A stretch of 56,430 nucleotides of DNA from Cryomorphaceae bacterium (GTDB lineage: Bacteria > Bacteroidota > Bacteroidia > Flavobacteriales_D > Sanyastnellaceae), in the NCBI GenBank assembly GCA_016124575.1, contig WGNM01000013.1:1-56430 (forward strand). Direction: 5' to 3'. The translations under genes and the position numbers were made by a program. The notes beneath the pieces are model-generated. The model made no database searches. It was not told the origin of the DNA and saw only the letters and a list, made by a program, of their open reading frames with translations. This document shows positions 2,289 to 48,029 of the stretch, piece after piece (within the stretch, counting starts at the first letter, position 1; every line of letters begins with the position of its first letter).

Positions 2289-2960
2289 ATGAAAAAGGCG
2301 CTGAAAATTGTACTTAAAACAGTGGTGGGTTTTCTCGCGTTTTTGCTAGTGTATGCATTGTTCGCCTTGGTACTTTCGGTCATTCCTTCGTCTGAGAAAC
2401 CAGGAGGTGATATCACCGTGTACTTGGTTTCAAATGGTGTGCATACCGATATCGCCGTGCCTACAAAAAACCATTTGATGGATTGGTCAAATTTCGTAGA
2501 TCCTGCGGCGACAAGGGGGAAAAGGGAAGACCTGCCATGGATATCGCTGGGGTGGGGACATCGCGGTTTTTATCTCGAAACGCCAACATGGAGTGATTTG
2601 ACCGTAGGCACGGCGTTGAACGCGGCATTCGGATTGGGAGAGTCGGTCCTCCACGCGACGTTCTACAAAGAATTTAAAGAAAGTGATCAGTGCTTTAAGT
2701 TGAATCTGTCGAATGAACAGTACGAGCAACTGATAGCTTTTATATCAGACAGCTTCGCGAAAGACGAGAAAGGAAAAACAATTTCTGTTGCAACCAATGC
2801 ATTGTATGGCGACAACGATGTCTTCTACGAAGCCACAGGTAAATACAGTTTGCTTCATACCTGCAACACGTGGGCGAATAACGGATTGAAGGCATGTGAG
2901 AAAAAAGCAAGTTTTTGGACGCCGCTCGAATGGGGCATCTTTTACCATTATAGAAAGTAA
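2289..2960 (+). CDS. DUF2459 / TIGR02117 family protein
   Basis: 223 aa with one N-terminal membrane helix (about residues 7-31, IVLKTVVGFLAFLLVYALFA). The remainder matches the DUF2459 (TIGR02117) family by its conserved blocks: VSNGVHTDIAVPT near residue 49, SLGWGHRGFYLETPTW near 86, and the C-terminal HTCNTWANNGLKA with WTPLEWGIFYHY. The invariant His in NGVHTD and the Cys in TCNTW suggest a Cys-His hydrolase-like fold, but no reaction is known to me. The MATE exporter starts 3 nt after its stop, so the two are probably co-transcribed. Family assignment is strong; function unknown. Confidence 0.85.
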   Translation: MKKALKIVLKTVVGFLAFLLVYALFALVLSVIPSSEKPGGDITVYLVSNGVHTDIAVPTKNHLMDWSNFVDPAATRGKREDLPWISLGWGHRGFYLETPTWSDLTVGTALNAAFGLGESVLHATFYKEFKESDQCFKLNLSNEQYEQLIAFISDSFAKDEKGKTISVATNALYGDNDVFYEATGKYSLLHTCNTWANNGLKACEKKASFWTPLEWGIFYHYRK

Positions 2961-2963
2961 GCA

Positions 2964-4337
2964 ATGATTTCGAAATCAATCCGCATCATTCGGGAGTCTC
3001 TCTCGGGTGCCGAGCGCGACTATACTGAAGGAAGTATCCCAAAGGCGGTAATTTTACTCGCCATCCCTATGATTCTTGAATTGAGCCTGGAAAGTGTCTT
3101 CGCGGTGGTTGATATGTTCTTCGTATCGAAACTAGGTGAGAATGCCATTGCCACAGTGGGACTAACGGAAGCTGTAATCATGATCATATACTCAATAGGT
3201 ATTGGTTTGAGCACAGGGGCCACTGCTATCGTTGCGAGAAGAACTGGTGAAAAAGATCCTGCAGCAGCCGCAAATGCTGGAGCCCAAGCAATCTTCCTAG
3301 CTGTCGTTATTTCTGTCATACTCAGTGTGCCGTCTGTTTTTTTTGCTGGCGATATTCTACGCTTGATGGGCGCTGCTGAGGATGTAGTGCGCGATGGTGC
3401 CATTTTTACTCAGATCTTACTGGGTGGAAACGTGGTCATCCTTCTGCTATTTATCATCAACGGTATCTTTCGAGGGGCCGGAGACGCAGCCATGGCCATG
3501 AGAAGTCTCTGGATCGCGAGCATCATCAATATCATTTTGTGCCCGATTCTCATTCACTACCTTGGCTTGAAAGGTGCTGCTATAGCAACAGTTATCGGTC
3601 GCGGTTCTGGTGTAGCATATCAACTTTATCACCTCTTCGGAGGCAAAGGAATTGTGAAGTTTACTGTCAAACAACTTAAGCCGGTTCCTGAATTAATCGC
3701 TTCGGTTATTAAGATTTCATGGCCTGCAACGTTGCAGTTTATTGTGGCCACTGGAAGTTGGATCGTGCTGACGAGGTTGGTGGCTGAAACAGGGGGGACA
3801 TCCGCTTCAGCGGGATACCAAATCGCCATGAGAAATGTGATGTTTTTTATCCTGCCTGCCTGGGGGTTGAGCAATGCTGCGGCAACATTGGTCGGACAAA
3901 ACCTAGGTGCTGGAAAGATTGATAGGGCTGAGAAAAGTATCATGCTGAGTGCAAAATTCAATGCGATCTTCATGGCTTTTGTTATGCTTTTGTTTGTCAT
4001 CTTTCCAAAAGCTGTCATTTCCATCTTTACTACTGAACCCCTTGTTTCTGAATATGCTGTTAACGCATTGAGAATCATTGGTTCAGGCTATATCTTTTAC
4101 GGCATCGGTATGGTAATGGTGCAAGCTCTCAATGGGGCAGGAGATACCAAGGCTCCTACAGTTATCAATTTCGTGGGATTTTGGTTGATTCAGATTCCGC
4201 TGGCATATTTTCTAGCTACCCAGACATCACTAAAAATCAATGGCGCGTTCATGGCCATTCCAATCGCGGAAACGGTGATAGCATTGCTGGCTTGGTATTA
4301 TTTAAAAAGGGGAAACTGGAAGAATATCCAGGTCTAA
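2964..4337 (+). CDS. MATE family efflux transporter
   Basis: 457 aa, the usual MATE length, with about 12 hydrophobic segments in two homologous halves (roughly residues 24-190 and 245-420). Family marks include IPKAVILLAIPMILELSLES at the first helix, VDMFFVSKLGENAIATVGL, and in the second half ATLVGQNLGAGKIDRAEKS followed by GDTKAPT. It sits in the inner membrane and is expected to export cationic or hydrophobic compounds in exchange for Na+ or H+; the substrate cannot be read from the sequence. It follows the DUF2459 gene by 3 nt. Confidence 0.93.
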   Translation: MISKSIRIIRESLSGAERDYTEGSIPKAVILLAIPMILELSLESVFAVVDMFFVSKLGENAIATVGLTEAVIMIIYSIGIGLSTGATAIVARRTGEKDPAAAANAGAQAIFLAVVISVILSVPSVFFAGDILRLMGAAEDVVRDGAIFTQILLGGNVVILLLFIINGIFRGAGDAAMAMRSLWIASIINIILCPILIHYLGLKGAAIATVIGRGSGVAYQLYHLFGGKGIVKFTVKQLKPVPELIASVIKISWPATLQFIVATGSWIVLTRLVAETGGTSASAGYQIAMRNVMFFILPAWGLSNAAATLVGQNLGAGKIDRAEKSIMLSAKFNAIFMAFVMLLFVIFPKAVISIFTTEPLVSEYAVNALRIIGSGYIFYGIGMVMVQALNGAGDTKAPTVINFVGFWLIQIPLAYFLATQTSLKINGAFMAIPIAETVIALLAWYYLKRGNWKNIQV

Positions 4338-11813: not shown

Positions 11814-11990
11814 ATACTGCTCAGCATTGTCTTTATGCAGAAGCGACATTGTTGATATGTCGCAATCAAGGTGCTGATTGTGGTTTCCCAAATTCGGGAT
11901 AGTTACAAATTAACCACGCAAATCAATGGACTTTCTAGGCTAACAATCTTTACACTTATTTTCAATAACACCTATTCATTCCCTCCGAAG

Positions 11991-12323
11991 CCTGAGGCTC
12001 TCGAAGGTAGAGGTTCTCGAAGGTGAGGTTCTCGAAGGCGAGATTCTCGAAGGCGAGATTCTCGAAGGCGAGATTCTCGAAGGCGAGGTTCCCGAAGGCA
12101 GAGGTTCTCGAAGGTGAGGTTCTCGAAGGTGCGGTTCTCGAAGGTGAGGTTCTCGAAGGTGAGGTTCTCGAAGGTGAGGTTCTCGAAGGTAGAGGTTCTC
12201 GAAGGTAGAGGCTCTCGAAGGTAGAGGCTCTCGAAGGTAGAGGCTCTCGAAGGTAGAGGTTCTCGAAGGTAGAGGTTCTCGAAGGTAGAGGTTCTCGAAG
12301 GTGAGGTTCTCGAAGGCAGAGGC
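11991..12323. repeat. Tandem array of 21 copies of a 15/16-nt unit
   Basis: The unit is GAGGTTCTCGAAGGT (15 nt) or the same with an extra A (16 nt). Twenty-one copies of CGAAGG occur from 12002 to 12316. Spacings are 15 nt in two runs (copies 2-7 and 8-13), 16 nt in seven consecutive steps (copies 13-20), and 15 nt at the end. The first copy carries the exact word TGAGGCTCTCGAAGG that forms the loops of the hairpin arrays at 14360 and 17325, so all three loci are one family. It lies in the 825-nt gap between converging genes; the rest of the gap (12324-12518) shows no gene. Open frames through the array are by-products of the periodicity. Confidence 0.9.
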
Positions 12324-12518
12324 CTTTTGCGCCCTGCGGGCCCTCCCTCCCCCGCGCCGTCAACACCGTGCACTGCAAAGGTAAGCTCTCCTCAAAAGCT
12401 TGTCAATAGGCACTTTGTGTGTGCCGGCGAAAACTTTGTAATCGTCAATTTTCCGACAAAAAATTGGAGATAACAAGAAGTCAATTTTCCAATGATACAG
12501 GAAAAGGTAACGTTCATG

Positions 12519-12550
12519 AAAAAAAAAGGCCGTCTAAAAAGACAGCCTTT
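12519..12550 (-). terminator. Rho-independent terminator of the 322-aa T9SS protein gene
   Basis: On the minus strand: stem AAAGGCTGTCT / AGACGGCCTTT (one G-U pair), a TTTT loop and a T-rich tail, 23 nt downstream of the stop at 12573. Its stem is nearly the same word as the terminator at 11786 on the other strand. Confidence 0.8.
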
Positions 12551-12572
12551 GTATAATTTCTTGAAAGCTAAA

Positions 12573-13541
12573 TTATTGCTTGATCACTTTCATCGTTTGA
12601 TTGCTTTCAACCGAGCGAATGAAATAACATCCGGCGCTTAAGCCACTAAGATCAAGTTGAGTTGATTGCTTTACCGTTTCTTGCATCAAAAGTTGTCCGC
12701 TAAGTGACCGAACCTCAATTGTTAGAGGTACATTCACTTGGGTGCTAACCGTAACGAGACCATCGGTTACTGAAGGGTAGACTTTCAACTTTGAGTCAAA
12801 AGTAAACTCCGGTAAAGAAACCACAGTGCTGGCAAATCGGTAAACACGACCATTTTCAGGAGTTGCATCTAGCGTTGCGCTAAGCAGTGTGTTTTCATCG
12901 CCTGAAGAAATTATAGTAGGTGCATTTGTTGATCCACTCAATATATGACCAAATCCAATATTATTTGAAGTCAGACTGATGTTCTGAAGTAATCCATGAG
13001 TTAACCAACCGTCATAAACAGTGAAATCTTTTACAGAGTTTTGTCCATAACGGACTTCAAAATCATTCGAACCTTCGTAAATCCACAGTTGAAAGGAAAC
13101 CCTGTCAGGGAATACGCCATCATTAACTTGATTATAAAATCCACAATTTTTCCACTCAACTTTGCAAATTTGAGAACCAGGAGTTCCAGAAAGTTGGTAA
13201 CTGATAGGGCTCAAAACACTGCCTTCATTGTAACCTACATCGATAATATCTGCGCTGTGAGCTATAATAACATTGGCCATGTCAGAACCGTTTTGGAAAA
13301 TTACAATTCCACCATAACCATAGCCGATGAATAATTCGGTATAACTAATGCCTTCAAAAAGAAAATTAAAACCGATAGGAACTAAAAGTTCGGGATCATC
13401 CCATGTCTCTGTAGAAACAACAGTCGGATTTGTTAAATCTGAATATTCACTCGTGAAAGTAGAAAAGTTGTAATTTAAAACTTGTGACTGACTTGAAATA
13501 GCCAGAACTAGAAGTATAGGAATTAGTAGATGTTTCATCAT
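12573..13541 (-). CDS. Secreted T9SS-sorted protein of unknown function
   Basis: 322 aa (an ATG one codon later is equally good). Signal peptide MMKHLLIPILLVLAISSQSQ. Residues about 22-240 are a beta-rich domain with FNFLFEGISYTELFIG, IGYGYGGIVIFQNG and SQICKVEWKNCGFY, a pattern common to uncharacterised Bacteroidota surface proteins. Residues about 250-322 form the T9SS type A tail (LKVYPSVTDGLVTVSTQV, GLSAGCYFIRS). It has its own promoter at 13579-13608 and terminator at 12519-12550, so it appears monocistronic. Confidence 0.75.
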   Translation of the reverse strand: MMKHLLIPILLVLAISSQSQVLNYNFSTFTSEYSDLTNPTVVSTETWDDPELLVPIGFNFLFEGISYTELFIGYGYGGIVIFQNGSDMANVIIAHSADIIDVGYNEGSVLSPISYQLSGTPGSQICKVEWKNCGFYNQVNDGVFPDRVSFQLWIYEGSNDFEVRYGQNSVKDFTVYDGWLTHGLLQNISLTSNNIGFGHILSGSTNAPTIISSGDENTLLSATLDATPENGRVYRFASTVVSLPEFTFDSKLKVYPSVTDGLVTVSTQVNVPLTIEVRSLSGQLLMQETVKQSTQLDLSGLSAGCYFIRSVESNQTMKVIKQ

Positions 13542-13578
13542 GGATATAATTTTGGTCTATAAGACGAATAAGTTGAGA

Positions 13579-13608
13579 CAAAGTTACATCCTAGAAGTTT
13601 GGTCGCAA
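13579..13608 (-). promoter_or_regulatory. Promoter (TTG-N19-TAACTTTG) for the 322-aa T9SS protein gene
   Basis: Minus strand: TTG at 13606-13608, 19 nt spacing, TAACTTTG at 13579-13586. Both boxes fit the Bacteroidota -33/-7 consensus with normal spacing. The -33 part overlaps the last codons of the LOG-family gene. Expected start of transcription is about 30 nt before the ATG at 13541. Confidence 0.5.
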
Positions 13609-14298
13609 TAGGTATTGACTGTAGAAATGATCAATGGCTTCCACAGCTTCTTCGGCGGTATCTACCACTTGCCACAGGTCAAGGTCGTCAGGAGAGATGT
13701 TTTGGAATTCATCGAGCAAGGTCTTTTTAACCCATTCTACCAATCCTCCCCAGAAATCTTTACCGACCAGAATGATTGGGAATCGACCTATTTTGTGTGT
13801 TTGAATAAGCGTCATTGACTCAAACAATTCGTCGAGGGTGCCAAAACCACCCGGCATTACAATAAATCCTTGGGAGTATTTCACGAACATGACTTTGCGG
13901 ACAAAGAAATAATCGAAGTTGATGGATTTGTCGTGGTCTATCCACTGGTTTCCTTTCTGCTCGAATGGCAATTCGATATTTAAACCCACAGAAGTACCAC
14001 CACCTTCATTGGCACCTTTGTTACCGGCCTCCATAATACCCGGTCCACCGCCAGTTATTACGCCATACCCTTTGTCAACCAAACGATGCGCTATGTCAGT
14101 CGCCATCTCATAGTACTTGGTGCCTGGCTTTGTCCGCGCTGACCCGAATATCGACACACACGGACCGATCCGTTGCATTTTTTCATACCCTTCAACAAAC
14201 TCACTCATGATCTTGAAAATAGACCACGAGTCGTTCGATTTGCTCTCATTCCATGAGCGTTGCTTAAATTTTTCGCCTATGCGCTTATCTTTCTCCAT
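13591..14298 (-). CDS. LOG family protein (TIGR00730 Rossmann-fold, nucleotide 5'-monophosphate phosphoribohydrolase type)
   Basis: 235 aa, typical length. Diagnostic motifs are GGGPGIMEAGNKGANEGG near residue 82 and PGGFGTLDELFESMTLIQ near 150; the second is the PGGxGTxxE signature of lysine-decarboxylase-like LOG enzymes. Known members cleave the N-glycosidic bond of (cytokinin) nucleoside 5'-monophosphates; in bacteria without cytokinin signalling the physiological substrate is usually unclear. Cytoplasmic. The start at 14298 lies just outside the hairpin array that fills the upstream region. Confidence 0.9.
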   Translation of the reverse strand: MEKDKRIGEKFKQRSWNESKSNDSWSIFKIMSEFVEGYEKMQRIGPCVSIFGSARTKPGTKYYEMATDIAHRLVDKGYGVITGGGPGIMEAGNKGANEGGGTSVGLNIELPFEQKGNQWIDHDKSINFDYFFVRKVMFVKYSQGFIVMPGGFGTLDELFESMTLIQTHKIGRFPIILVGKDFWGGLVEWVKKTLLDEFQNISPDDLDLWQVVDTAEEAVEAIDHFYSQYLLRPNF

Positions 14299-14359
14299 GG
14301 GTTAGTAATTGAACGGGGAAATTAAGCAAAAATGCAATATCCGTGATAACTCCCTGTGC

Positions 14360-14544
14360 GTTGCCTTCGAGTGCCTCAATAAACCTTTGCCTTCGAGAGC
14401 ATCAATAAACCGTTGCCTTCGAGAGCCTCAGGCAGCGGTTTATTGATCCTCCCGTTACGTTGCCTGAGGCTCTCGAAGGCAACGTAACGGGAGCCTGAGG
14501 CATATAACAAAACCGGGGGCTGAGGCTCTCGAAGCCCCGGTTTT
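14360..14544. repeat. Hairpin-array repeat, locus A (five copies of a 13-nt core)
   Basis: Contains TTCGAGAGCCTCA or its complement at 14366 (one mismatch), 14392 (one mismatch), 14418, 14465 and 14521. The first three copies alternate with 13-nt spacers (ATAAACCTTTGCC, ATAAACCGTTGCC), a 26-nt period. Three cores are loops of hairpins with different stems: 14401-14417 with 14431-14447 (17 bp, one G-U), 14451-14464 with 14478-14491 (14 bp, perfect), and 14509-14520 with 14534-14544 (one bulge). It occupies the divergent gap 14299-14602. Locus B at 17325-17477 is the same composite in the same orientation. Confidence 0.9.
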
Positions 14545-14602
14545 GCACTATCAAAAAAAACATTACATTGCATTACTTATTCTTTTCACTAAATACACTC
14601 CA

Positions 14603-15889
14603 ATGAAAACAATTGTATTAATCATTTCTAGTTTCTTAGCTGTAAGCGTTAGCGGACAGTTGAGTCAAATTGTTGTAGAACAGTTTGCTTTAACAGGTCC
14701 AGAATCCGAACAACCAGAAGGAACAGTAACCTATCGTGTATATGCAGAATTGATGCAGTCGAACGATAAAGTTGTATCTGTTTTTGCGTCGGATAACTGT
14801 CATTCGTTGGATATTTCGACTTCAACCCATTTTTTCAACCACGACTTTGGAGCTATATATGGAAGTACAATCAATTCCGGTTTCTATTTCTTTTTTCCTA
14901 CTTATGAGGCTGACTCTTGGGTAACTATTGGTGCTGCCAATTCCACCGTCTTTGGAGCAATGGATGTAGAGATTTCAGTTGCCTCTTCTGATCTGTTCAA
15001 TAATTCTTTCGGCGTGAACAACCCTGAAGGATCTAGCTTTGTTTTGAACGATGGCCTTTGGTTTACTTCAGCCAATTCTCAAACGGCTTTGCCTGTTGGG
15101 CCGGATAATCGTGTTTTGATCGGACAGTTTACAACGTCGGGACAACTCAGTTTCCACCTAAATATGAGGGTTTTGATTGGAGGTGATGAAGTCAACGGAA
15201 TTGTCGACTATGTATGGAATGAATCGTGCAATGAGGCCAGCAATCTTACTGGATTTGAGCAGTACCATAGCCAGCTTACATACGGGGAGTGCAATGATAT
15301 CAATGCTTGTAACTATTCTACAAATTCTACGACTGATGAATTCTGTACGTATATAGAAGGTTGTATGAACCCTGATTTTTGTGCATACAATCCGCTAGCC
15401 TGTATCGACACAGGTTGCCTTCCCAACAATGAAGGTTGTATCAACGAGAACGCTATAAATTACGACCCGCTCGCAACTTGTCCTACACCTTGTACTTTCA
15501 ATTTTCACGGAACAGTATACCATGATTCTAACATCAATGGCGTTTTGGACGAAGGAGAAACGGGGATACCAATGCAGCAATTGAATTTTAGCCAAGGAAG
15601 TAATTTGGTTGTTTATACCGACGAGAATGGATCATTTAGCGTTGAACTTGAAGAACTGTCGACTTTATTAAACTTAACGTTTAATCCAAGTTTTCCTTTC
15701 ATTACAAATTCTCAGTTCCCTTTCACAATTAACCCGAGTCAAATCAATGGTCCATTCAATATTGGATTGAGTTTTGATGTCCCGAATTTTAGCTTTGAAT
15801 CAGAAATTTTCTCTTTGTTTGGTGGTGCTTTGTGTGGCTCTGCTACGCCCATAGTGGTGAGTGTTGAAAATAATTCAAATGTGCCATAG
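14603..15889 (+). pseudogene. N-terminal part of a T9SS surface protein interrupted by an in-frame TAG
   Basis: 428 codons from the ATG at 14603, chosen for its signal peptide (MKTIVLIISSFLAVSVSGQ), to a TAG at 15887-15889. The reading frame continues without shift into the next feature, so one base change (for example CAG or TGG to TAG) would restore a protein of 893 aa. About residues 235-300 hold cysteine-rich repeats of the ECNDINACNY / GCMNPDFCAYNP kind, common in Bacteroidota surface proteins, followed by an SdrD B-like segment (GTVYHDSNINGVLDEGETG). A sequencing error or translational readthrough remain possible. Confidence 0.7.
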
Positions 15890-17284
15890 TCTTGCTACTA
15901 TGAGCTTACTTTTGACGATGTATTGTTGATGCCAATAAATCCCGAAAGTCCGGATTCTATAGTAGGTAATAAGTTGTATAGATCATTTAATACCGGCATT
16001 CAGTCACCAAATTTCCCCTATTTTCTGGAGGTTTTCGATCCAACTGGTAACTTGCCTGAAGGAGAAACAACCATCCTCAGCTTGAAGACTTATGGCTTTT
16101 ATGAAGGGGTTCAAGTGGCGTACGGTGAAACGGCAATTGAATTGATGATACTTTGCAGTTATGATCCAAACGATATTACGGTTACTCCTTCAGGTTGGGA
16201 AGAACCAAAATACGTTGATCCTGAAGAAACGTTGGAATACCGAATTCGTTTCCAGAATACAGGTAACTATCAAGCATTCAATGTTGTGGTAAGAGACACA
16301 ATTTCGGAACACCTCGACTTAAGTACGTTCGATTTAAAGGCATACAGCCACAATGTTGAACCTGTAATTAATCTCGATACCCGCGAAATAGCATTCTACT
16401 TCAATGATATTAACTTGCCTTATGAAGAATGTTGCGAATTAGAAAGTCATGGCTTTATCGTCTACGATATTCAACCTTATGCTGATCTGGCTCACAATAC
16501 TGTTATCGAAAACACAGCTTACATCTATTTCGATTTCAATGATCCAATTATTACAAATACAGCGTCTTCTTCTATATACGTCTGCCCTGAAAACTTAGCA
16601 GAGTTTACCAGCGATGTTGAAACGCTTTGTCTGGGTAGCATACTAAATCTTGAAGCAACGCAGCCGTGGGTAGAAACGTACTTATGGACAGTAAACAATG
16701 TGCCAAATGGCGCGGAACAGTTGAATAGCATTGATTTCACAGAAGCAGGCATGCATTCAATTAGTCTCACAGCATCCAATCCTTTTTGCGCTCACAGCAG
16801 CGCTGTGGATGTTGAAGTACTGCCTCTTCCAACTGCTGTTTTTGAAACGAATAGTAACGTCCTCACAGCATCCGATGCTGCCAACTACCAATGGTTCAAC
16901 AACGGTATCCTCATCGACGGTGCTACCGGCCAAACGCTGGAAATAACCGAAGACGGCGACTACAGTGTAGAAGTAATGGGCGACAATGGTTGTGTGGCGA
17001 TGTCAGACGAAGTATTCGTGGCTTATGTGGGCATCAATGAACAGTGGAAAGAAAACCTATCTGTATTCCCAGTTCCTGTTGGTAAAAACGATGTGTTGAA
17101 TATCGCAGGCATAAACCTCACCGATATCACCTACATCCGCATTGTCGATAGAGCAGGGAAGGTGGTCTTCGAAGCAGCCAACGGCATTCGCCAAATTCCA
17201 ATCGGCAACTGGGCAAGTGGAAACTATTCACTTGAAATATACAGAGGTGCAGATAAGGTGGTGAAGCTGGTGGTGGTGAGGTAG
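15890..17284 (+). pseudogene. C-terminal part of the TAG-interrupted T9SS surface protein
   Basis: 464 codons in the same frame as the upstream part, continuing with SCYYELTFDDVL immediately after the TAG; an ATG at 15929 or TTG at 15923 could start it separately, but it would have no signal peptide. Residues after the stop include a DUF11-like segment (YDPNDITVTPSGWEEP, LEYRIRFQNTGNYQAFNV, VIENTAYIYFDFNDPI), a PKD/Ig-like stretch (LEATQPWVETYLWTVNN) and a T9SS type A tail (NLSVFPVPVGKNDVL, GNWASGNYSLEIY). Without readthrough or correction this half could not be exported. Confidence 0.7.
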
Positions 17285-17324
17285 AAGTTGGTTTGTAAAC
17301 CTTTGCATTTGAGACTCCCAATAC

Positions 17325-17477
17325 GCAGCCTTCGAGAACCTCAATAAACCTTTGCCTTCGAGAGCCTCAGGCAGCGGTTTATTGATCCTCCCATTCCGTT
17401 GCCTGAGGCTCCCGTTACGTTGCCTGAGGCTCTCGAAGGCAACGTAACGAGAGCCTCAGGCTCTCGAAGCCCCGGTT
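17325..17477. repeat. Hairpin-array repeat, locus B (direct copy of locus A)
   Basis: Cores at 17331 (one mismatch), 17357, 17425 and 17456 (one mismatch), plus a truncated copy near 17404. Hairpins: 17341-17356 with 17370-17385, and 17413-17424 with 17438-17449 (12 bp, perfect). It shares the words AATAAACCTTTGCC, GGCAGCGGTTTATTGATCC, CCCGTTACGTTGCC and GAAGCCCCGGTTT with locus A, in the same order and orientation. It fills the gap between the T9SS gene and uvrA, and its last bases touch the uvrA stop codon. As it lies between converging genes it could also end transcription. Confidence 0.9.
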
Positions 17478-20332
17478 TAAATCTCCATCGCCAAAAACTT
17501 GCCTGTATGGCTTCCGTTGGCTTTGATAACTTTTTCAGGTGTGCCTTCAGCGATGATCTGTCCGCCGCCTTTGCCGCCTTCTGGACCAATGTCAACGAGG
17601 TGGTCGGCGACTTTTATTACGTCGAGGTTGTGCTCAATAACCAAAACGGTGTTGCCTTGGTCGACAAGTCTGTTTAAGACATCTATCAACATCTGGACGT
17701 CTTGAAAATGCAGACCGGTAGTGGGCTCGTCTAATATGAAGATGGTGTTGCCTGTGCTAATGCGAGCCAACTCAGTGGCTAATTTCACGCGTTGTGCCTC
17801 ACCACCTGATAGGGTGGTGCTCTGCTGGCCAAGCGTGATATAGCCTAGGCCGACGTCTTTTAAGGTCTGCGCTATGCGGCGGATTTTCGGTATGTTCTCA
17901 AAGAAATCAACGGCGTCTTCTATGGTCATGTCCAATATGTCGGCGATGGATTTGCCTCTGTAACGCACTTCCAAGGTCTCTCTGTTGTAGTGTTTGCCAT
18001 TGCATGTTTCACAGTCGACATAAACGTCGGGTAAAAAGTTCATCTCAATAACGCGAACTCCAGCCCCTTTGCAGGTTTCACAGCGTCCGCCGCTGACATT
18101 AAACGAAAACCGACCTGGTTTATATCCTCTTACCAAGGCCTCTGGTAATCGGGTAAAGAGGTTGCGTATCTCACTGAAAATTCCAGTGTAGGTGGCAGGG
18201 TTTGATCGCGGCGTTCGTCCAATCGGACTTTGATCAATCTCGATTACTTTGTCTAGATGCTCCAAGCCTTTGATCTTGTCGTATGGAAGGGCCTTTCTGG
18301 TTTCTTCGTAAAAATGGTTATGAAGAATAGGGTAGAGCGTCTGGTTAATCAGCGATGATTTGCCACTACCAGAAACGCCGGTGACGCCTATAAATGTCCC
18401 CAATGGTATGGTCAATGTGACGTTCTGCAAATTATGACCCGTAGCGCCTTTCAAGACAAGCTTGTTTCCGTTGCCTTTTCTGCGTTTTTTGGGTGTTTCG
18501 ATCTTTAAGGCTCCTGATAGGTAACGCGCCGTGACAGAGGTGCTGCTCAAATGCTCTTTTGGTGGACCTTCAGCAACGACATTGCCACCGTGCTTGCCAG
18601 CACCTGGACCAATATCGATCAGGTGGTCACTCTCAAGCATCATGTCTTTGTCGTGTTCTACTACAATAACGGTATTGCCCGCATCGCGTAGCTGCTTCAA
18701 ACTGGCGATCAATTTATGGTTGTCGCGCTGGTGAAGTCCGATGCTTGGCTCATCGAGAATGTAGAGCACGCCGACTAGCTTGCTGCCAATCTGTGTGGCG
18801 AGTCGAATACGCTGGGCTTCTCCACCCGATATGGTTCGCGCACTGCGATTTAAGGTGAGGTATTCGAGTCCGACATCTAACAAAAACTGAAGCCTAGCGC
18901 GGACTTCTTTCAGCGATTCGCGCAAAATAACTTTCTGTCGCTCCGAAAGGGTGTCTTCTAATTCGTTGAACCATGCAGCCAATGAAGCTATGTCCATCCC
19001 CGCGAGGGCAGAAATGTCGGTGTCGTTGAGTTTGAAATATGTTGCATCAATGCGCAAACGTGTTCCTTGGCAAGTTGTGCATGTCTTCCGATTCATGAAG
19101 CTCGATGCCCAGCGTTTTAATGTGGCATTGCCACTATCTTGAGCTGCACGCTCGATGATTGAAATCAAACCTTCAAAGCGGACGTTGTACGAGCTCGCTC
19201 CTGTATTCGATTTAATGACCAAGGGCTCGTCTGTACCATTCAAAAGCTCTTGCAAAAACAGTTCTGAAACGTCTTTGAGTGCTGTTTTGACGTTGAAGCT
19301 GTGCTTCTCAAGTAGCGCTTCAACCTGCGTCAATGCCCACGAACTCTTCAATTCTCCCAATGGTGCGATACCTCCTTGACGTATGTTCTTGGATGGGTCG
19401 GGGATGATTTTTGATGGGTCAACTTCGGCAACGTCGCCCAAGCCGTTGCAGGTGGGACAAGCACCGTATGGACTGTTGAAAGAGAATAAATTTGGTTCTG
19501 GTTCTGCGTATGATATGCCTGTGGTCGGACACATCAAAAAGCGCGAAAAGTGCCTTACTTCGGAGCCTTCATGGGGTAAAACCAACATGCTGCCTTTTCC
19601 CATGCGGAGGGCCGTTTGGACTGATTTTAAGACCCGTTGATAGACATCTGAGCCTGCCTGAAAGCGGTCAATAACCACTTCGATGTCGTGTATTTTGTAT
19701 CGGTCAACTCTAAAACCAGGCTCTAAATCAATCAATTCACCGTCGACACGGGCTTTGACATATCCTTGCTTTAATATTTGCTCAAATAACTCTCGATAAT
19801 GTCCTTTTCGACCTTTCACAAGTGGAGCAAGAAGTACCAATTTTTGTCCAGACATGTCGTTGCAAATGCGATCAGCAATCTGCTCGTCGGTGTAGCGAAC
19901 CATTTTTTCGCCAGTATTGTACGAATATGCTTCACCAGCACGGGCGTACATCAATCGCAAAAAGTCGTATATCTCAGTAATGGTGCCTACGGTAGATCGA
20001 GGGTTTCTGGAAATGGTTTTTTGCTCGATGGCGATGACAGGACTCAAACCGGATATTTTGTCGACATCCGGTCGTTCCAATCCTCCTAAAAACTGTCGGG
20101 CATACGCAGAAAATGTCTCAAGGTACCGGCGTTGTCCTTCAGCATAAATGGTGTCAAATGCCAACGAGGATTTCCCACTGCCGCTCAATCCGGTTATGAC
20201 AACGAGTTTTTCCCGTGGAATGCGGACGTTGATATTTTGCAGGTTGTTTTCTCGTGCACCCGTTACTTCGATGTATTCAATGTCATCGATTTTATAGGCA
20301 GAGGTTTCCAGGACTTTGGTTTCGTGGTTCAT
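17477..20332 (-). CDS. uvrA: UvrABC excinuclease subunit A
   Basis: 951 aa, full length. Damage-recognition ATPase of nucleotide excision repair that loads UvrB at lesions. Two ABC modules are visible: Walker A GLSGSGKSSLAFDTIYAEG near residue 50 with signature SGGEAQRIRLA near 500, and Walker A GVSGSGKSSLINQTL near 650 with SGGEAQRVKLA near 840. The C-terminal zinc module has both CxxC pairs (GRCETCKGAG and VDCETCNGKH). In the N-terminal zinc module the first pair reads CPTT rather than CxxC, while the second (CPTCNGLG) is intact. It is last in a leftward run after nhaC, with a 48-nt gap. Confidence 0.97.
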   Translation of the reverse strand: MNHETKVLETSAYKIDDIEYIEVTGARENNLQNINVRIPREKLVVITGLSGSGKSSLAFDTIYAEGQRRYLETFSAYARQFLGGLERPDVDKISGLSPVIAIEQKTISRNPRSTVGTITEIYDFLRLMYARAGEAYSYNTGEKMVRYTDEQIADRICNDMSGQKLVLLAPLVKGRKGHYRELFEQILKQGYVKARVDGELIDLEPGFRVDRYKIHDIEVVIDRFQAGSDVYQRVLKSVQTALRMGKGSMLVLPHEGSEVRHFSRFLMCPTTGISYAEPEPNLFSFNSPYGACPTCNGLGDVAEVDPSKIIPDPSKNIRQGGIAPLGELKSSWALTQVEALLEKHSFNVKTALKDVSELFLQELLNGTDEPLVIKSNTGASSYNVRFEGLISIIERAAQDSGNATLKRWASSFMNRKTCTTCQGTRLRIDATYFKLNDTDISALAGMDIASLAAWFNELEDTLSERQKVILRESLKEVRARLQFLLDVGLEYLTLNRSARTISGGEAQRIRLATQIGSKLVGVLYILDEPSIGLHQRDNHKLIASLKQLRDAGNTVIVVEHDKDMMLESDHLIDIGPGAGKHGGNVVAEGPPKEHLSSTSVTARYLSGALKIETPKKRRKGNGNKLVLKGATGHNLQNVTLTIPLGTFIGVTGVSGSGKSSLINQTLYPILHNHFYEETRKALPYDKIKGLEHLDKVIEIDQSPIGRTPRSNPATYTGIFSEIRNLFTRLPEALVRGYKPGRFSFNVSGGRCETCKGAGVRVIEMNFLPDVYVDCETCNGKHYNRETLEVRYRGKSIADILDMTIEDAVDFFENIPKIRRIAQTLKDVGLGYITLGQQSTTLSGGEAQRVKLATELARISTGNTIFILDEPTTGLHFQDVQMLIDVLNRLVDQGNTVLVIEHNLDVIKVADHLVDIGPEGGKGGGQIIAEGTPEKVIKANGSHTGKFLAMEI

Positions 20333-47828: not shown

Positions 47829-47873
47829 GCCACCATCCTCCTCCCCACGGTGATGGTGGCTGAGCCTGTCGAA
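47829..47873. repeat. Isolated repeat core variant beside a 9-bp hairpin
   Basis: Contains TGAGCCTGTCGAA at 47861-47873, which differs from the array core TGAGGCTCTCGAA only by an exchange of C and G at positions 5 and 8. Immediately before it is a hairpin, GCCACCATC (47829) with GATGGTGGC (47852). It lies in the 47713-48029 gap, which is otherwise AT-rich and without visible genes. Confidence 0.6.
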
Positions 47874-48029
47874 GTCACGATTCTCCCGAAATTTTGAACT
47901 ATAATAAACGCTTATAAATGTTTAAACTTTATTGATCGTAAATACATGTTAATCAGTAGTTTAATGATATTTTACATTCAATAAAGCAAAGTAGACATCT
48001 CTATTCATCCAGACCCAAAAACAGCGCAC

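Follow-up and report, generated by a model that had tools for sequence, protein, structure and literature searches.

A widespread family of REP-like hairpins with a conserved apex and compensating stems, and its linkage with a GIY-YIG nuclease gene in eight bacterial genomes

The window analysed here is a 56,430-nt stretch (contig WGNM01000013.1, assembly GCA_016124575.1) of the 3.68-Mb genome of a Cryomorphaceae bacterium. Copies of one short word, the core, lie between its genes: locus A is in a gap between divergent genes, and locus B and a tandem array at 11994–12322 are in gaps between convergent genes. The genes beside loci A and B are presumably those of a LOG-type protein and uvrA. The features, with the method by which each was found, are as follows.

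11994–12322, + strand: tandem array of about 21 copies of the 15-nt unit GAGGTTCTCGAAGGT(A), made of the core (tandem finder)
12327–12441, + strand: 115-bp dispersed repeat adjoining the array (repeat comparison)
14361–14412, + strand: direct repeat of two 26-nt units, both of which contain a variant core (TTCGAGTGCCTCA, TTCGAGAGCATCA) (repeat search)
14402–14446, + strand: locus A hairpin 1, 17 paired positions (one G.T) around TTCGAGAGCCTCA (DNA fold)
14449–14493, + strand: locus A hairpin 2, perfect 17-nt arms around TGAGGCTCTCGAA (fold z -9.0, arm comparison)
14508–14545, + strand: locus A hairpin 3, bulged stem AAAACCGG(G)GGC / GCCCCGGTTTT around TGAGGCTCTCGAA (fold)
17340–17386, + strand: locus B hairpin 1, homologue of locus A hairpin 1 (arm comparison)
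17401–17461, + strand: locus B hairpin 2, 24-nt arms with one mismatch around TGAGGCTCTCGAA (arm comparison)
17456–17468, + strand: variant core TCAGGCTCTCGAA, which overlaps hairpin 2 of locus B in its right arm (core search)
47857–47878, + strand: sister core TGAGCCTGTCGAA, one copy, with a 5-bp stem (one G.T), GTGGC/GTCAC (core search)

The initial annotation had placed a 17-bp stem at 14401/14431, a perfect 14-bp stem at 14451/14478, a bulged stem at 14509/14534 and two hairpins in locus B. The first and the third were recovered as locus A hairpins 1 and 3, and both hairpins of locus B (17357, 17425) are present. The second stem is indeed perfect but longer than described, with arms of 17 nt (14449–14465 with 14477–14493), a length that counts the T:A of the core. 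All three locus A hairpins were more stable than shuffled DNA on both strands (z -4.3 to -9.2); hairpin 1, with the inner stem CCGTTGCC/GGCAGCGG, folded at -16.3 kcal/mol (z -7.0), and hairpin 3 gave z -4.3 on the + strand and -5.1 on the - strand. A third 26-nt unit forms the start of hairpin 1, and the tandem finder reported 2.8 copies over 14359–14430. In locus B, hairpin 1 carries CCTTTGCC in place of the left arm CCGTTGCC, and its perfect inner stem is just 4 bp. Both stems are common to loci A and B, which are homologous, and the two loci are copies of one composite. The array at 11994–12322 is part of the same core set as their hairpins, and the sister core at 47857–47878 shows that this genome contains both types of core.

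The same 13-nt word had been noticed as the tip of several hairpins. This observation is real, and we found that the family is far larger, and its stems less unrelated, than first supposed. Within the window there are 29 core matches (at most 2 mismatches) against 1.21 expected from shuffles. In the whole genome TTCGAGNNCCTCA has 43 copies and the exact TGAGGYTCTCGAA has 35, with 0 copies of the reversed control in either case. We read 42 of the genomic sites, 39 of which are distinct; the 43rd (contig C48) has no stem. As the initial annotation had proposed, we compared the complementarity of the flanks with chance: a perfect stem of at least 5 bp was present in 17 of the 39 distinct sites versus 4.1% when arms of different loci were combined, and one of at least 7 bp in 11 of the 39 versus 2.2%. 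Outside the two tandem arrays, 22 of the 29 copies read had a perfect stem of at least 3 bp. Copies in the two arrays have stems of 0–2 bp, and some listed copies, such as L039 and L074, have no stem at all, so not every copy forms a hairpin. Such stemless copies speak for a chance or compositional artefact, but the controls (0 against 43 in this genome and 0 against 82 in genome G078, described below) and the crossed-arm comparisons refute this explanation, whose probability we consider negligible.

The stems had also been described as unrelated to each other, and this proved incorrect. The inner 8 bp are mostly variants of one family, CCGYTGSC/GSCARCGG, with both sides changing together. In the 29 genomic copies outside the two tandem arrays, pair 2 is GC in 12, CG in 10 and AT in 1, and pair 5 is TA in 13, CG in 5 and GC in 4; the pairing at pair 2 or pair 5 was reached in 0 of 1000 shuffles, a count that is not a probability because the genomic sites are related to each other. 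Stem pairs 6 and 7 did not exceed the shuffles because they hardly vary. At 8 sites all inner 8 pairs are Watson-Crick, and 5 of these stems extend to at least 12; their outer parts differ, the A/B pair excepted. The inner stems are thus related, and the outer stem parts are mostly locus-specific. A reduction of the stems to a few fixed sequences, which the initial annotation had named as the finding that would tell against it, is half borne out.

The core itself had been taken for a plain loop. Fold prediction for the window core gives instead a T:A pair, a 2-nt bulge and then GAG/CTC closing 3 nt; on this prediction the 13-nt "loop" is a mini-stem with a bulge and is not open. In C..G forms of the core the inner pairing is weaker and is not predicted every time.

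The TTCGA..TCAG words that the initial annotation had mentioned for other bacteria were found in other genomes, of the same phylum and of others. Named genomes were scanned for exact matches to the core plus G, which gave at least 118 stretches, and records among the matches listed belong to Chryseobacterium, Aquirufa, Fulvivirga, Desulfobotulus, Chloroflexi, Acidobacteria, Treponema, Neomarinimicrobiota and others. Among the matches listed for these 118 stretches, 93 of 146 distinct copies have a stem of at least 3 bp versus 9.5% with crossed arms, and some of the structured ones come from records named Chloroflexi, Acidobacteria and Deltaproteobacteria. Covariation was scored, again among the matches listed, on one site per stretch outside frames of at least 120 aa, which left 53 of the 118 stretches. 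Pair 2 is CG in 20 of them, GC in 10, AT in 9 and TA in 7 (0 of 1000 shuffles), and pair 3 is CG in 23, GC in 14 and TA in 13; the closing G is constant here because the search pattern demanded it. The 65 sites inside frames of at least 120 aa (among the matches listed) pair less, yet above shuffles at pairs 2 and 3. Because sites in long frames pair above chance (0.55 versus 0.29 at pair 2), the frames are not a clean control. Such frames hold 27 of 90 sites with stems of at least 4 bp and 52 of 74 sites with 0–2 bp (among the matches listed); structured sites are thus less often in long frames, which we counted towards the extragenic feature of REP elements. Like REP elements, the hairpins are short palindromes, extragenic and multicopy.

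A second pattern, TTCGANNNNCTCA, which was not selected on stems, gave 146 distinct sites among the matches listed, in 12 of 149 genomes. Among these matches a stem of at least 3 bp was found in 48 of the 146 sites versus 2.1% with crossed arms, and by inner letters the structured sites were 32 of 43 for C..G, 5 of 14 for G..C and 11 of 89 for all others. The preference for C..G and G..C indicates an apex of the form TTCGA-S-NN-S-CTCA with complementary S..S. Core counts were above control counts in G053 (33 versus 4), G117 (30 versus 1), G241 (49 versus 4) and G306 (44 versus 3), and many sampled genomes had no core excess, for example G139 (0 versus 8 in the control) and G295 (0 versus 3). 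In G078, a 14-nt form, TTCGAC-NNN-GCTCA, has 82 sampled copies versus 0 in the control, and the stems ATGC, ATGG and ATCC are each paired with their own complement. Scrambled cores were too few for use as a control, as 4 of 9 patterns had one site each, none structured, among the matches listed in the 118 stretches. A strand preference from G.T versus A.C mismatches was considered and rejected, the counts being too few and lineage-biased (14 versus 4 among the matches listed in the 118 stretches, 1 versus 1 in the window's own genome).

Taken together, these results show a constant apex, compensatory stems, clustering and spread across phyla. The conserved apex consists of a closing C:G pair, T:A, a 2-nt TC (or GA) bulge and a mini-stem, with the core TTCGA-S-NN(N)-S-CTCA. 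That recognition is confined to the tip, as the initial annotation had suggested, is upheld in part: the apex and the closing pair are fixed, and pair 2 takes all four Watson-Crick types. Recognition would then be by shape and tip sequence, and the stem would only have to pair, its letters drifting with compensation. We are confident, short of certainty, that this is a widespread REP-like hairpin family recognised at its tip.

We then compared the window's genome (G000) with that of one other species of the genus (G001, 85% complete). With orthology assigned by eye, the arms are alike in both species at L035/L076 and L031/L082, and both the arms and the copy number differ at L033/L079. The 15-nt array is missing from the orthologous gap of G001 (contig C216), and loci A and B coincide with contig breaks in that genome. 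The 115-bp repeat has several copies in both genomes of the genus (window 12327–12441; L322–L326, L037, L071, L077 and L081). A core hairpin is present in two G001 copies of this repeat, and none is present at that spot in the other copies seen. This old repeat provides the sole contrast of with and without, between copies too diverged to call, and no insertion was caught in the act.

Some long arms are nearly perfect. Those of locus B hairpin 2, which include part of another core, match in 23 of 24 bases, and those of L033 match in 24 of 25 bases and run into a neighbouring core. At L035, a unit of about 52 nt is present four times; three of these copies, as well as the G001 ortholog, have the arms GAC...GGC, and copy 4 has GAC...GTC, a change that restores pairing. 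Similarly, the locus A spacer reads CCG versus CCT in the neighbouring unit and in locus B, a change towards the partner arm. Template switching is described as giving arm homogenisation and spacer inversion (PMC8604942, in the portion available). We infer that the outer arms arose by inverted copying, that is, template switching. An inverted copy of the flank, which was one of the first suggestions made for this DNA, fits the outer arms with their 23 of 24 and 24 of 25 matching bases. A copy of the locus B left arm was also considered as the source of the locus A right arm. The two match in 23 of 24 bases, with 19 in one run, versus 16 for the left arm of locus A itself, but the extra bases are core-like and near-palindromic, and this candidate was set aside as ambiguous; the gain of a 21-nt unit in locus B may be explanation enough. 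Owing to this ambiguity we lowered our confidence in template switching, and we now lean only slightly towards the view that the arms are renewed in this way.

Such arms could also be produced with no dedicated enzyme, if a hairpin-prone word spread passively, with quasipalindrome template switching maintaining its arms and slippage and segmental duplication its copy number. The long near-perfect arms agree with passive spread, and so do the tandem units of 15, 21, 22, 26 and about 52 nt; template switching is described as making and repairing stems in the accessible part of PMC8794818. However, passive spread leaves unexplained both the recurrence of one apex word in many phyla with unrelated stems and the nuclease linkage presented below, and we regard it as rather unlikely.

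At the RNA level, the hairpins might be transcribed and recognised at the tip by a protein, with a role in termination, stabilisation or regulation. One G001 copy resembles a textbook terminator, with the core in the loop and then a T-run; its G000 ortholog has the stem preserved around the loop TTTGAAAATTAA, in our reading a decayed core, and the unrelated record L214 is also terminator-like. However, locus A lies between divergent genes and locus B between convergent genes, both core orientations occur, and few printed copies are followed by a T-run, as judged by eye. No T-run directly follows locus A hairpins 1–3 on the + strand, and Rfam gave no match at the gathering score in window positions 11900–17600 (best 37.8 bits versus 64 required). 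The use as a terminator looks like a later co-option, and we consider an RNA-level element to be quite improbable.

GTAG-REPs have a GTAG foot as their common mark, and their enzyme is a Y1 HUH transposase. The hairpins described here might be ordinary REPs moved by RAYT (the Y1 HUH transposase), as for proteobacterial GTAG-REPs, with the RAYT of this genome lost. They have the same look, being palindromic, paired and clustered, and a RAYT profile match is present in 113 of 149 sampled genomes of the class (58 over the cut-off). Moreover, 'atypical' structures without GT[AG]G are reported beside Bacteroidetes class-2.6 enzymes in the part of Quentin 2018 (PMC6006769) that was available. The sole RAYT-profile match of the window's genome is weak and split, in a 355-aa frame at G000:C40:31740-32687 (L153, L159, L175), and no core was found in the 6.5 kb read around it. 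When loci of the enzyme were searched for hairpins, 74 RAYT-profile loci (47 over the cut-off, two genes covered twice) held no structured and 2 unstructured cores, and 30 Y1_Tnp loci (92 kb) held one unstructured core only. The high-copy genomes G078 and G048 have no match to PF01797 or NF047646. RAYT as the linked enzyme was thus rejected by three tests, with no structured core at the loci read. When the arms were inspected by eye, no GTAG or GTGG foot was noticed at the stem base, the feet being GAC, GAACGG or none, and no CGTC tag was noticed in the arms read. These results make movement by RAYT improbable in our view. The hairpins work like a REP element, yet without a linked RAYT and, by eye, without a GTAG foot.

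An earlier clustering of neighbouring genes within a 3-kb radius, limited to the 118 stretches (among the matches listed), showed nothing notable. In the dense hairpin clusters of G153 and G228, we observed a small GIY-YIG gene between the hairpins. A search of 341 loci found the gene beside hairpins in G025, G031, G038, G153, G228, Aquirufa nivalisilvae and an Ignavibacteriae record, together with one weak, distant case 5 kb from a hairpin (L224). All ORFs at most 200 nt from a structured core (at least 3 bp) were clustered across 169 loci and 131 genome labels, each of the 118 named stretches being one label, though a few share a genome. GIY-YIG was the most recurrent family, in 7 of the 131 labels, and the next families had 3 each: the second-ranked one appears, from its sequence, to be the antisense of the same GIY-YIG gene, and the third is a different large protein. 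Among loci fetched regardless of nuclease, 7 of 8 GIY-YIG genes lay at most 200 nt from a hairpin versus 5.9% of bases (169 loci), leaving out of the count a partial second copy in L340. The nearest hairpin is at 12–80 nt in 7 of 8 loci and at 90 nt in Aquirufa, and hairpins stand within 150 nt on both sides in 5 of 8; five of the seven core-found nuclease loci were in view because of the several cores that they held. All seven linked proteins match PF01541 (E 2e-19 to 2e-15), and their invariant alignment columns include R26 and E63, which we take to be the catalytic residues. The linked nuclease also matches the UPF0213 structures PDB 1zg2 and 1ywl over about 80 residues (E 5e-22 and 5e-17).

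Some further features of these loci were observed. In L340, a second, partial GIY-YIG copy (2582-2827; 48 aa, 94% identical) lies among the arrayed hairpins of G228, which points to duplication there. In L172 of G153 (2373-3548), the GIY-YIG frame stays open through the hairpins into further sequence, presumably nucleotidyltransferase-like, for a total of 391 aa. Translation of the hairpin array at L340:3502-3825 as an open frame yields repetitive peptides, PFPEPVEG for example, and such tails may turn up as spurious protein ends in databases.

The reverse test started from the protein and comprised 24 GIY-YIG loci, namely 11 of 52 plasmid places and 13 viral contigs, some of them near-identical. 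One of the 24, the Sphingomonas parapaucimobilis plasmid locus L341, which was thus found through its protein only, holds five structured cores, placed around the GIY-YIG gene and within it; this gene sits between nrdR and an RNA methyltransferase gene. Hairpins were absent from 23 of the 24 protein-fetched loci, including L357, L342 and L343, the nearest relatives of L341 in the tree, and the 13 viral-contig loci had no structured core. The lack of hairpins at the nearest relatives of the Sphingomonas gene lowered our confidence in a GIY-YIG driver. In a tree of 29 genes, the six from Bacteroidota form one branch (98/94), and the label 'flanked' requires 3 changes versus 7.2 in shuffles, with 0 of 500 as low. 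Among the clusters of at least three hairpins found without using the nuclease (window not counted), 15 of 21 have no GIY-YIG gene, and a 10-hairpin cluster of Desulfobotulus is one of the 15. No linked nuclease was found in the 35 kb read of G078, despite its 82 sampled core copies. The 903,135 bases searched in the window's 3.68-Mb genome, which overlap in part, contained no GIY-YIG gene, and none adjoined the structured cores that were read in this genome. Overall, a UPF0213-type GIY-YIG gene is closely linked with the hairpins in eight genomes. This nuclease is the best candidate driver, on the strength of linkage in three groups of bacteria, not of function, and we propose it tentatively, as a role that falls somewhat short of an even chance.

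In the account that we prefer, the candidate GIY-YIG nuclease, which some genomes have and others may have lost, would nick DNA at extruded hairpins, and repair by copying would spread the elements. Fold-back (template-switch) synthesis at a hairpin would put an inverted copy of one flank on the other side; this would renew complementarity, lengthen the arms with locus-specific sequence and, with slippage, make tandem arrays. The elements of the window's genome are probably non-autonomous copies. For this account as a whole, comprising a REP-like family, tip recognition, template-switched arms and a candidate GIY-YIG driver, we see the balance as even. The hairpins might go further and represent a new class of mobile element, in which only the bulged tip is conserved, a single-domain GIY-YIG nuclease is the driver instead of a transposase, hairpins are nicked and copied by fold-back, and each site receives a fresh locus-specific stem; this class would extend over Bacteroidota, Ignavibacteriota, Chloroflexota, Acidobacteria and Proteobacteria, with non-autonomous copies in the window. 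We consider a new class conceivable but doubtful.

Known REPs are foot-marked and have a Y1 transposase, and a family conserved only at its apex would be evidence that a hairpin can be recognised by its tip alone. In such a family, the making and repair of hairpins by template switching could also be followed in nature. Should the GIY-YIG link hold, the little-characterised UPF0213 family would acquire a candidate role in biology, and a testable explanation would become available for many unnamed palindromes of Bacteroidota and other phyla.

In a literature search that lay largely outside subscription journals, no paper was found that prints the exact core or describes this hairpin family. Part of the family may already figure in the supplementary table of 'atypical' structures of PMC6006769. 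Neither TTCGA nor GIY-YIG is named in the main text of the RepRanger paper (PMC12306157), as far as this was available, and PMC2267715 gave no match to the words sought. The linked nuclease has the same domain as UPF0213 GIY-YIG proteins, and no paper was found that ties this domain to extragenic palindromes; one paper, on Moraxella carriage, names both GIY-YIG and extragenic palindromes in the part of it that was available.

The hairpins share with REPs and REPINs and their RAYTs a short form, a frequent arrangement in inverted pairs or clusters, many copies per genome and, sometimes, a linked gene of small nuclease type. In GTAG-REPs, the GTAG foot is the common mark and a Y1 HUH transposase is the enzyme, whereas here the apex is conserved and the stems covary freely. 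Unlike GTAG-REPs, these hairpins have no GTAG foot that we noticed, and in the loci read RAYT is unlinked and a GIY-YIG nuclease is linked. The GTAG tag is given as the mark of GTAG-REPs in PMC3733652, in the text at hand. The same source (Di Nocera 2013) describes CGTC-tagged REPs, palindromes that occur in Bacteroidetes among other phyla and are said to be without a dedicated transposase. These carry CGTC; the available text of PMC3733652 contains no CTCAG and has TTCGA once, within another palindrome, and its figures may print sequences. Finally, quasipalindrome hairpins (PMC8794818, PMC8604942) are similar in that their arms are made alike and are extended by inverted copying of the flank; the available parts of these sources mention no conserved loop word, whereas here the loop is one word across phyla.
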